The position numbers and the translations under genes were made by a program. From contig NZ_KE384547.1 of the NCBI RefSeq assembly GCF_000426625.1, positions 1,162,986 through 1,226,985 of the forward strand: a stretch of 64,000 bases of DNA, read 5' to 3'. How positions within the stretch are numbered: position 1 is the first letter of the stretch; every line of letters begins with the position of its first letter. Of this stretch, positions 42,745 through 46,196 are shown one piece after another. This DNA comes from Psychrilyobacter atlanticus DSM 19335. GTDB lineage: Bacteria; Fusobacteriota; Fusobacteriia; Fusobacteriales; Fusobacteriaceae. The notes beneath the pieces were generated by a model that saw nothing but the letters and a program-made list of their open reading frames with translations, made no database searches and was not told the DNA's origin.

Positions 42745-42941
42745 CGAAGCACCTCCATGATCAATAATTAAAGTTAATTTTTAATTTAAAATTTACTTAA
42801 TAATGATAGATTGATAGGTTATAGAAGAGATAATAATTAATAAAATTAGCCTATTAATACTTTATTAAAGGAAAAAACTTTAAATCCTTTAATATAATTA
42901 CAAAATCAAAATTTTTCGATAAGGATCAGATAGGAGGTTTT

Positions 42942-43835
42942 ATGATAAAAGTACTATTTTATATAAAATGGGCTATAGACAGGGTAATATTAAAAAAAAG
43001 AATACCTCTGAACAGTTCTATAATTTTAACTGACAAATGTAACTTACATTGTAAACACTGCATTGTTGCAAACCTTGGGTACCCGAACTATCATTTTGAC
43101 TCGGTTAAAGATGATTTAAAGAAACTTTATAACCTCGGATCTAGAATATTAATTATAAGCGGAGGAGAACCATTTATATGGAAAGATGAGATCTATGATG
43201 TTGAGGATGTAGTTTCTTACGCTAAAAAACTTGGATTTTTTAGAGTCTTCATATGTACTAATGGAACTTTTGAGTTAAAATCAAAAGCTGACTATCTCTG
43301 GGTAAGTATGGATGGAAATGAAATAGAACACAATAAACTGAGGGGAGAGGTGTTTTCAAAAGTATATAGAAACATTTTGGATAGCAATCATAAAAATATC
43401 TATATAAATTTTGTGATAAGTAAAATAAATTATAAAAACTTTGAAGAATCCATAAAGAAAATATTGAGCATAAAGAAAATAAAAGGAATACTAGTACATA
43501 CATTCACTCCTTATGTCGGATTAGACAGAAGTCTTATGCTTAATTTTGAAGAAAAACAAGATGTAATCTTAAGGTTGTTAAGATTAAAAAAGAAACATCC
43601 TTTTAGAATTTTAAATACTTTTGATGGCTTGAGGGCACTAAAAAGTGATAAATGGGAGAGACCAGTATGGGGAAGTGTTGTTATGAATCAGGGACAAATT
43701 ACCAATTGCTGCTGCAGAGAGGGAATATTTGATAAGTATACATGTAAAAATTGTGGGATTTCCATTAGTGTGGAAATTTATGTGTTGCAGAGGATGAAAC
43801 CCTTAGCAATATTAGAGTATTTAAGGTTCTTATAG
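42942..43835 (+). CDS. Radical SAM protein of unknown function, with C-terminal cysteine cluster
   Basis: A 297-residue radical SAM enzyme. The cluster motif CNLHCKHC (CxxxCxxC) lies near residues 33-40 and the SAM-binding GGEP near 74-77. The C-terminal region has a run NCCCREGIFDKYTCKNCG, with five cysteines, which looks like a SPASM-like auxiliary Fe-S site. A basic, hydrophobic first helix may touch the membrane. Some resemblance to HpnH- or MoaA/NirJ-type enzymes is visible, but no specific reaction can be assigned. It is co-directional with, and 15 bases upstream of, a HemN-like radical SAM gene, so the two probably act in one pathway. Confidence 0.85.
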   Translation: MIKVLFYIKWAIDRVILKKRIPLNSSIILTDKCNLHCKHCIVANLGYPNYHFDSVKDDLKKLYNLGSRILIISGGEPFIWKDEIYDVEDVVSYAKKLGFFRVFICTNGTFELKSKADYLWVSMDGNEIEHNKLRGEVFSKVYRNILDSNHKNIYINFVISKINYKNFEESIKKILSIKKIKGILVHTFTPYVGLDRSLMLNFEEKQDVILRLLRLKKKHPFRILNTFDGLRALKSDKWERPVWGSVVMNQGQITNCCCREGIFDKYTCKNCGISISVEIYVLQRMKPLAILEYLRFL

Positions 43836-43850
43836 TAAAAGGAGGATACT

Positions 43851-45098
43851 ATGTTATTAACCAATATATTAAAATTAATTTTAACAAGACGATGGAATCC
43901 CTTTATATTTTATAAACCTCAAAAAGAAGTAGAGTTGAAATACAATTCAGGTGAGATTGGTCTATATATCCATATTCCATTTTGTAAGTCAATATGTAGT
44001 TTTTGCCCCTATTTTAAGGTTTTATACAATGAAGATCTGGCGAATTTTTTTATAAATGCCCTGATAAAAGAGATAAAAATTGTTTCAGAGAGATACCCTA
44101 AAAAGATTACTTCAATATACTTTGGGGGAGGAACTCCAGCTTTATTAATTGAGAAATTGGGGAATGTTGTTACGGAAATAAGGAATAGTTTTGATGTTGA
44201 AAATAACTTCGCAATTGAACTACATCCAGACAATTTAGAAAACGAAATTTTGTCCCAGTTAAAGGAGAATGGATTCAATATGATAAGCATAGGGGTTCAA
44301 TCATTTTCTGAAAACTGTTTGAAAAATCTAGGGAGAGATAAAGAGAATATTGAAGAGAAATTAGAGAGAGTTAGAAAATTTCAATTTGATGTTGTTGACG
44401 TGGATCTGATCTTTGGAATCCCAGGACAAACTGAAGATGACTTGGAGTATGATTTTGACAAAGCAGTAGAGTTAGGAGCTACTCAGATATCAACATATCC
44501 ATTTATAGATTTTTCATACTCAAAAAATAAAAATAAACCTTTGGGGAGGAGTCAAAAGAAAAAAATGCTGAATAGACTGTCGGAGGTATCTGAAAAAAAT
44601 AATTTTGAGAGAACTTCAGTATGGACATTTGCTAAAAAAGGTTCATCAAAATACTCTTCGGTAACAAGGGATAGTTTTATAGGATTAGGACCAAGTGCGG
44701 CTTCTCTTGCAGACAATTTTTTTAAGGTGAATACTTTTTCTGTAGAAGAATATATAAAAAGCATAGAAATGGGGAAAAATCCAACTTGTTTAGTAATGAA
44801 ATTTGATTTTAGAACAAGAGCCGCATATTGGCTTTTTTGGAGTTGTTATAATATAGAGATAAATTCAGACTCATTTAATGAGTTATTTAATGAAACCTTA
44901 GCTGAAAAATATAGTTGGGAATTAAAGATCTTAGAGAAATTAAGATTTTTAGAAAAGTATCCCACTGGGTATAGGTTAACCGAAAGAGGTGCATATTACT
45001 TTCATCTAGTAGAACAGAAATATACACATCAGTATATCGATAAGACCTGGAGAATGGCTTTAGAAAATCCTTGGCCAGAAAAAATTGAACTTTATTAG
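43851..45098 (+). CDS. HemN/HemW-like radical SAM protein
   Basis: A 415-residue member of the coproporphyrinogen-dehydrogenase-like radical SAM family. IHIPFCKSICSFC gives the CxxxCxxC cluster. IYFGGGTPALL, SIGVQSFSENCLKNLGRD, VDLIFGIPGQTEDDLE and FIGLGPSAAS follow in HemN order. The C-terminal part after 330 is a winged-helix-like HemN_C region ending in a basic-aromatic tail. True HemN is about 450 residues and HemW about 380. The neighbour is another radical SAM protein rather than heme genes, so tetrapyrrole modification, heme breakdown (ChuW-like) or class C methyl transfer are all possible. Confidence 0.82.
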   Translation: MLLTNILKLILTRRWNPFIFYKPQKEVELKYNSGEIGLYIHIPFCKSICSFCPYFKVLYNEDLANFFINALIKEIKIVSERYPKKITSIYFGGGTPALLIEKLGNVVTEIRNSFDVENNFAIELHPDNLENEILSQLKENGFNMISIGVQSFSENCLKNLGRDKENIEEKLERVRKFQFDVVDVDLIFGIPGQTEDDLEYDFDKAVELGATQISTYPFIDFSYSKNKNKPLGRSQKKKMLNRLSEVSEKNNFERTSVWTFAKKGSSKYSSVTRDSFIGLGPSAASLADNFFKVNTFSVEEYIKSIEMGKNPTCLVMKFDFRTRAAYWLFWSCYNIEINSDSFNELFNETLAEKYSWELKILEKLRFLEKYPTGYRLTERGAYYFHLVEQKYTHQYIDKTWRMALENPWPEKIELY

Positions 45099-45253
45099 TA
45101 GTCAAAATAGACCTTATTAGCGTTATATTAAGACTGGTTATTTTCAAATGATTACTAAATTATCAATGGAATGGTTATATATCAGTTTATGTTGAATGAG
45201 AAAGGTAAAATTTGGTTATTCAAAAGGACAAAGAGAATATTAGGAATATAAAA

Positions 45254-45280
45254 AAGCAGATAGGTTTATCCTATCTGCTT
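45254..45280. terminator. Bidirectional terminator after the radical SAM pair
   Basis: Perfect 11-bp stem AAGCAGATAGG / CCTATCTGCTT with loop TTTAT between convergent genes. Confidence 0.85.
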
Positions 45281-45329
45281 CTACTTTTAAATTTTTAAAA
45301 ATAATATTAAATAACCATTACGCGAGTGA

Positions 45330-46196
45330 TCAATTAAACATATTTTCAATCATAGTTTCAAATATATTTGAAACTACAGGAGCTACATTTATACTAATCA
45401 TCCACTCATTACCATATAATTCATTTTGTTCAAGATAGTAGTTAACCTCAAGATCAAACTTCCATGGCCTTCCATTGATGATAGCGGTTTTTGTTATAGT
45501 TGCGTTTATTGGTACATCCCACTGTTCATTTTCCCAGTCATATGCAAATTTAGGTGTTGAACCTACTCCCCAACCTTCTCCTAGGAATTTCATACAAAAT
45601 ACCTGGGTTGTCGATGTAGAAATAGAAGTATCACCGCTTCCACCAGTATCCCAACGGTGATTAGGTAGTATCCCCACTAAATTTTCATTTGTTATTTTAG
45701 CTATTAACACTTCAGGACCAAAGGCAAATTTGTTCTGAGTAAATTCATTACTTCCGGTAGGCAGCTGACCTATAATACCACCAGCATAAAGTATCCCGTT
45801 TGGATTATTGACTGCATAAACTAAATCAAATCCCAGATCTCCAACACCACTTTCAGAGTGTATTCTACCGTCGGAGCCAGGACTACCCTGATCTAAATAA
45901 AGTGGAATAGCAGGTCTAAAAAGTATCTTATTACCATTATCTAATTTAAAAGGTAAGGTTGGTTGAAATAAAACTAAAGAACTGTTATGAGAGTCTGCTC
46001 CTGGAAGATCCCCACTCATATCCCTATATTGAAATTTAAACTTTAAACTTGCCAAAGAAGTATTAGGGTTTGATAGTTCCCTGGTCACTTTAGCAGCATC
46101 TTTTAAGTTAACCTCTTCATTAGGAGCGCCCGAAAGTTCTCCAGCAAAAAGACAGGTATTAAGTAACGATAAAAGAACTATAATTTTTTTTTTCAC
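45330..46196 (-). CDS. Outer-membrane beta-barrel protein, MetA-pathway/transporter-like
   Basis: A 288-residue exported protein. The signal peptide is MKKKIIVLLSLLNTCLFAG with likely cleavage before or near Glu20. The mature part alternates polar and hydrophobic residues in short strands (SSLVLFQPTLPF, GDLGFDLVYAV, ILYAGGIIGQLPTG, KFAFGPEVLIAKI) as in outer-membrane barrels of the Phenol_MetA_deg type, often misnamed neuromedin U. Transport of a small hydrophobic or organic compound is possible. The start is GTG at 46196 with GGAGAGTG upstream. No close operon partner. Confidence 0.7.
   Translation of the reverse strand: MKKKIIVLLSLLNTCLFAGELSGAPNEEVNLKDAAKVTRELSNPNTSLASLKFKFQYRDMSGDLPGADSHNSSLVLFQPTLPFKLDNGNKILFRPAIPLYLDQGSPGSDGRIHSESGVGDLGFDLVYAVNNPNGILYAGGIIGQLPTGSNEFTQNKFAFGPEVLIAKITNENLVGILPNHRWDTGGSGDTSISTSTTQVFCMKFLGEGWGVGSTPKFAYDWENEQWDVPINATITKTAIINGRPWKFDLEVNYYLEQNELYGNEWMISINVAPVVSNIFETMIENMFN

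Follow-up and report, generated by a model that had tools for sequence, protein, structure and literature searches.

Described systems that resemble the locus analysed here include HemN, the heme chaperone HemW and the anaerobilin synthases ChuW, HutW and HmuW, which are HemN-like relatives of class C. A two-SAM mechanism has been proposed for the class C methylases and cyclopropanases NosN, NocN, TbtI, C10P and Jaw5, which belong to natural-product clusters, and in the STM4012-type clusters, represented by STM4011-4014 of Salmonella, a HemN-like protein is encoded beside another radical SAM gene. The menaquinone methyltransferases (MKMT) MenK and MqnK are characterised by the motifs YFxxxRxE, GxxFxxxYxGGGT and LYxHxPFCxxxCxxCxF (PMC10320005).

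The locus presented here lies within the 64,000 nucleotides of Psychrilyobacter atlanticus DSM 19335 that were analysed (the window) and comprises two genes on the + strand. P1 (42942..43835, 297 aa) encodes a radical SAM protein, and P2 (43851..45098, 415 aa) encodes a radical SAM protein with a HemN fold. The coordinates, strand, lengths and 15-bp spacing given for the two genes in the original prediction were all correct. Each gene is preceded by an AGGAGG-type ribosome-binding site. The intergenic region at 42745..42941 (strand not assigned) presumably holds the promoter of the unit, which is closed by a bidirectional intrinsic terminator at 45252..45282 (three terminator-like sites were found, against a mean of 0.6 in shuffled sequence). 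The pair is flanked upstream by a DUF2817 gene and downstream by genes for an unnamed protein and a Na/H-exchanger-like protein, all on the - strand; these flanking genes are convergent or divergent relative to the pair and unrelated. Downstream of the pair and convergent with it, at 45330-46196 (- strand), lies a gene for a 288-aa protein that looks secreted or outer-membrane-like and matches nothing in Pfam or NCBIfam. The riboswitch search found none adjoining the pair.

P1 and P2 form a real conserved two-enzyme radical SAM module of anaerobes, and both the family and the pairing are new. Scanning with aligned P2 relatives led to distant loci, with a P1 homologue next door in six of the nine best, and P1-alignment searches of three further orders, together with the surroundings of the loci, gave 41 loci encoding a full-length P1 of more than 300 bits. 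P2 was adjacent and on the same strand in every one of these 41, which come from Bacillota, Bacteroidota and Fusobacteriota, and the spacing was mostly 0-67 bp. The single-sequence P1 search of genome contigs gave no match; the plasmid search likewise gave no P1 match, and its P2 matches were remote and HemW-like only. The order P1-P2 is found in most loci, and the order P2-P1, seen in ten (one with a truncated P1), is confined to a single P2 clade (100/100). That two unrelated radical SAM genes have become neighbours by chance could be argued from the Fusobacteriota, where just 2 of 98 genomes carry the pair, but the 41 adjacent pairs in three phyla, in both gene orders and with a shared operator, refute this reading and leave it a negligible probability. 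The lack of conservation that would have spoken against a genuine unit was thus looked for and not found. The conserved pairing across genomes also agrees with the earlier suggestion that P1 and P2 act together; such joint action is probable and has good support. Orthology to a characterised enzyme was sought for both proteins and found for neither, so that the description of the enzymes as undescribed stands. Nothing relevant to the pair, the palindrome described below or the names of the families turned up in the open-access literature searched, and an earlier mention may exist.

The intact pair was present in 18 of 297, 9 of 295 and 11 of 225 genomes of three orders, and broken pairs were found at five loci (L156, L213, L217, L218 and L219). 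The second fusobacterial copy (genome G016, L002:925-2742) is about 77-80% identical to that of the window, its P1 bearing an internal deletion and its P2 a single in-frame TAA, which reflect either decay or an assembly error; the DUF2817 neighbour in G016 matches in its C-terminal part only. Between these two copies the dN/dS of P2 is about 0.09, and by this sequence measure P2 is under strong purifying selection. The distance matrices of P1 and P2 were correlated (Mantel r 0.70), none of 999 permutations reaching as high a value. In the trees the window P2 nests in the Bacillota clade of P1-P2 order, its exclusion being rejected (AU p 3e-5), and the window P1 was rejected from the matching Bacillota position (p 4e-4). 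The pair is retained in spite of these differing histories, and this suggests re-pairing; the discordance of the window P1 could come either from the exchange of one partner or from fast divergence of P1 (a long branch). If a partner was indeed exchanged, the case for a mutual need of the two functions would be strengthened. Ten Bacteroidales proteins (249-288 bits) constitute a sister group of P1, named P1', and have no P2 alongside.

In Bacillota the unit appears to be regulated jointly. The perfect palindrome AGTGTAA-NN-TTACACT (AGTGTAANNTTACACT), often extended to TATAGTGTAAAATTACACTATA, precedes it in 15 loci (L040, L142, L144, L146-L148, L150, L151, L208-L213 and L215), either 19-120 bp ahead of the pair or directly in front of an HTH regulator gene that precedes the pair. 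For upstream sequence of that total length the expectation is about 1e-4 perfect palindromes, and two further loci carry the palindrome with one mismatch. A 149-aa regulator of the HTH_3/HTH_19 type, whose C-terminal half has no assignment, is encoded directly upstream of the pair in seven loci, covering both gene orders (L146, L147, L151, L208, L211, L212 and L213). AGTGTAANNTTACACT is likely to be an operator. Neither the palindrome nor the HTH regulator was found upstream of the pair in the window. Viral contigs with the palindrome amounted to three unrelated matches, and no regulator with the site AGTGTAANNTTACACT was found in the open-access literature.

P2 belongs to the radical SAM superfamily (Pfam Radical_SAM, 71.7 bits against a cut-off of 29.5), and no NCBIfam model reached its cut-off; the best was PRK08629 (212 bits, cut-off 355), followed by STM4012, HutW, HemW and HemN. 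Its AlphaFold2 model (pLDDT 88.2) matched HemN (1olt) with a Z score of 30.9 and 3.5 A over 371 residues (17-388) at 21% identity, the next match having a Z of 15; this places P2 in the HemN-like, class C fold, the Pfam HemN_C score being just 12 bits. In the P2 tree all paired loci and some unpaired relatives form one clade of 54 rows (SH-aLRT 99), which is separate from the HemN, HemW, ChuW/HutW-like and MenK-like PRK08629 groups and adjoins the last of these. The clade is marked by CxxxCxxCPY (C45, C49, C52, P53 and Y54; 43983..44012, + strand in the window) and is called here the CPY clade: the Pro-Tyr after CxxxCxxC is present in 53 of 53 members and in none of the compared HemN, HemW, ChuW/HutW-like and MenK-like rows. 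Other residues private to the clade are F221, S270, W330, Y333, H385 and W400.

The residues that would be needed for a second SAM are retained. Y39, Y90, R162, D185 and E123 are invariant in P2 and correspond to Y56, H109, R184, D209 and E145 of HemN, and when Y39, Y90, R162 and D185 were compared with Y34, Y96, R153 and D196 of NocN, the SAM-II ligands of the latter (PMC12871812) were matched in residue type and position. The same two-SAM residues are retained by HemW, a heme chaperone, and for this reason they fall short of proving catalysis by P2.

The original prediction offered a tetrapyrrole or heme-handling pathway; a pathway of this sort could oxidise, degrade or traffic heme or coproporphyrinogen. 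The HemN fold of P2 and the presence of HutW and HemW among its next-best models fit such a role, but P2 belongs to none of the HemN, HemW and ChuW/HutW clades and lacks HNxxYW. A ferrochelatase match is absent from 38 of the 41 pair genomes (host included) and exceeded the cut-off in one; this count speaks for heme made through ferrochelatase, from which heme taken from outside and the siroheme-dependent (Ahb) routes are separate. No heme uptake or synthesis genes were found near the pair, and the suggestion was not borne out; a heme pathway is now very improbable. Most carriers of P2 lack ferrochelatase, although the database model that fits P2 best bears the name 'coproporphyrinogen III oxidase family protein'. 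As a separate observation, ten fusobacterial loci (L220-L229) encode HutW-like proteins (TIGR04107, 228-248 bits against 400) that read CxxxCSFCN[LM]N and group with ChuW; no HutW-like protein was found in the genome of the window at the threshold used.

The position of P2 next to the MenK-like proteins raises another reading, namely that P2 methylates menaquinone in the manner of MenK, MqnK and MenK2, with P1 as a further enzyme of quinone modification. PRK08629, the best-matching model, is MenK-like, and P217, W258, T295 and F296 are common to the P2 clade and the MenK-like rows and are hardly found in other groups. A MenA-like UbiA prenyltransferase gene lies directly upstream of P1' in six of the ten Bacteroidales loci (L197, L198 and L200-L203), where a menaquinone-linked step is possible. 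The host genome has one UbiA. Against this reading, a UbiA match over the cut-off is absent from 17 of the 41 pair genomes, among them five in which the main contig is essentially a whole chromosome (G311, G255, G264, G414 and G454); carriers lacking UbiA would be unable to make menaquinone by known routes. No quinone genes lie beside the pair, P2 constitutes a clade of its own, and the window P2 departs from the MKMT motifs (PMC10320005), reading FFINALIKE at the YFxxxRxE site, KKITSIYFGGGT at the GxxFxxxYxGGGT site and CPY at the LYxHxPFCxxxCxxCxF site. In QISTYPF, its counterpart of QxTxYPL, Ser replaces Thr and Phe replaces Leu; NxFxxxxY is matched by NTFSVEEY. A prenylquinone is thus unlikely as the general substrate, given the 17 carriers without UbiA, and the pair as a quinone-modifying system is improbable.

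P1 is likewise a member of the radical SAM superfamily (Pfam Radical_SAM, 45.8 bits, cut-off 29.5), and no NCBIfam model matched it at its cut-off, the matches being generic and weak. The best model for its orthologues was PTO1314, at about 74 of 306 bits. C33 and C37 of its CxxxCxxC motif (43038..43061, + strand) are present in 41 of 41 pair orthologues and C40 in 40 of 41. The C-terminal motif C245-x10-C256-x11-C268-x2-C271-G of the orthologues (n=41) would bind an auxiliary Fe-S cluster. In the window this motif takes the form C256-(CC)-C268-x2-C271-G (43707..43754, + strand), C245 being replaced by Ser (Cys in 39 of 41 orthologues) and two extra Cys occurring at 257-258. The five-cysteine cluster ascribed to P1 at the outset proved to be a variant of the four-Cys motif of the 41 orthologues. 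A distant P1 relative of another family in the same order (L015:1396-3668) is PTO1314-like (93 of 306 bits).

The AlphaFold2 model of P1 (pLDDT 83.9, with confidence below 50 at 257-267) matched BlsE (Z 20.8), SkfB (20.7), viperin (about 19.5) and tetraether lipid synthase (within the range Z 19-21), and SuiB was also among the closest solved folds. P1 resembles the twitch/viperin type, and these model-based matches speak for its fold without showing its function. An anti-phage role was considered and rejected, the similarity to viperin being generic (PADLOC pVip, 46 bits). SkfB and SuiB are RiPP maturases, and class C enzymes occur in RiPP pathways, so P1, with its SkfB/BlsE-like fold, and P2 could together modify a precursor peptide. 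In 39 loci, however, no small ORF conserved across lineages was present within 700 bp of the pair, and neither a RiPP recognition domain nor a peptidase or exporter recurred near it, which makes peptide maturation hard to credit. The sole small ORF that did recur was discarded, as it proved to be a translation of the palindromic operator.

Ahead of the barrel, the N-termini of both proteins carry a segment that is hydrophobic and net positive, with a mean Fauchere-Pliska hydrophobicity of 0.74 for P1 and 0.51 for P2 and mean net charges of +2.2 and +3.0, respectively. These segments are consistent with membrane contact and fall short of proof; the N-terminal helices of P1 showed no excess of amphipathicity over shuffles. 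A rival reading has the pair modify no lipid but some small cofactor, or a nucleic acid such as tRNA or rRNA, common to anaerobes. Heme synthesis and prenylquinone are each missing from some carriers, so a general metabolite would fit, and many enzymes of that kind are known in the radical SAM superfamily, but the patchy distribution and repeated decay of the pair indicate an accessory trait and the hydrophobic N-termini point elsewhere, so that this reading is unlikely.

Gene neighbourhoods offer a few hints of a lipid, in the form of adjoining genes for the handling of polyprenyl compounds. They are seen where either protein stands without the other and are, for the most part, limited to a single order and a single family. 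Apart from the MenA-like genes beside P1', P2-only relatives adjoin a gene for undecaprenyl-diphosphatase UppP (named from sequence) in five genomes of one family (L003, L026, L028, L029 and L036), in an apparent operon whose reading frames overlap in L028. A UspA-like gene is also present in some of these operons. The distant P1 relative in L015 has a lycopene-cyclase-type FAD-dependent oxidoreductase gene as its neighbour. Among the pair loci themselves, four from Bacteroidota have a gene for a short-chain dehydrogenase immediately upstream, and no constant third gene pointing to a substrate was found.

The reading preferred here, held tentatively and at somewhat less than even confidence, is a two-step radical modification of a membrane-associated, perhaps polyprenyl, substrate in which P2 contributes class C one-carbon chemistry. 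P1 and P2 would belong to one short pathway, or form one complex, and have a common target that they modify through radical chemistry in strict anaerobes. P2, as a class C enzyme, would cleave the SAM bound to its [4Fe-4S] cluster to a 5'-deoxyadenosyl radical, which would abstract a methyl hydrogen of a second SAM; the resulting methylene radical would attack an unsaturated carbon, leading to methylation or cyclopropanation. P1 would carry out a second radical step on that molecule with the help of the auxiliary cluster on its C-terminal cysteines. The one-carbon chemistry of P2 is predicted from its residues, the joint action on one substrate from the pairing, and a membrane-associated lipid, possibly a polyprenyl lipid, is a speculative substrate suggested by the solo relatives beside MenA-like and UppP genes. 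The fuller proposal, a two-enzyme module with its Clostridia operator and regulator for the one-carbon or cyclised modification of a polyprenyl or other membrane lipid in strict anaerobes, is doubtful. If a lipid is the substrate, the pair would stand for a new class of modified bacterial lipid and new anaerobic membrane chemistry. The conserved pair, the invariant residues and the Clostridia operator provide handles for the substrate hunt, as do the small size of the two genes, the predicted SAM-derived label and the occurrence of carriers and non-carriers in one order.

Compared with the known systems, P1 has the radical SAM core in common with PTO1314, HpnH, SkfB, BlsE and viperin and differs from them in its own C-x10-C-x11-CxxCG auxiliary motif and in its P2 partner; the window P1 reached 33 bits with the PTO1314 family model (TIGR03961) and 38 of 180 bits with the NCBIfam model of prokaryotic viperin (pVip). 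P2 shares with HemN the fold and the two-SAM residues but lacks the fourth Cys of CxxxCxxCxC and scored 133 of 325 bits (TIGR00538). The domain layout and core residues are like those of HemW, and P2 has CPY where HemW has CDF (TIGR00539, 152 of 205 bits). With the ChuW/HutW model (TIGR04107) P2 reached 156 of 400 bits, ChuW and the HutW-like rows forming another clade, and with the STM4012 model 164 of 380. With MenK, MqnK and MenK2, for which PRK08629-type proteins served as a stand-in, P2 has the YP, W258 and NTF residues in common, whereas it has CPY after the cluster in place of their CSFN and, unlike them, is partnered with P1, many of its carriers having no UbiA. In keeping the SAM-II contact residues P2 is like NosN, NocN, TbtI, C10P and Jaw5, and in place of their natural-product clusters it has just a partner radical SAM gene.
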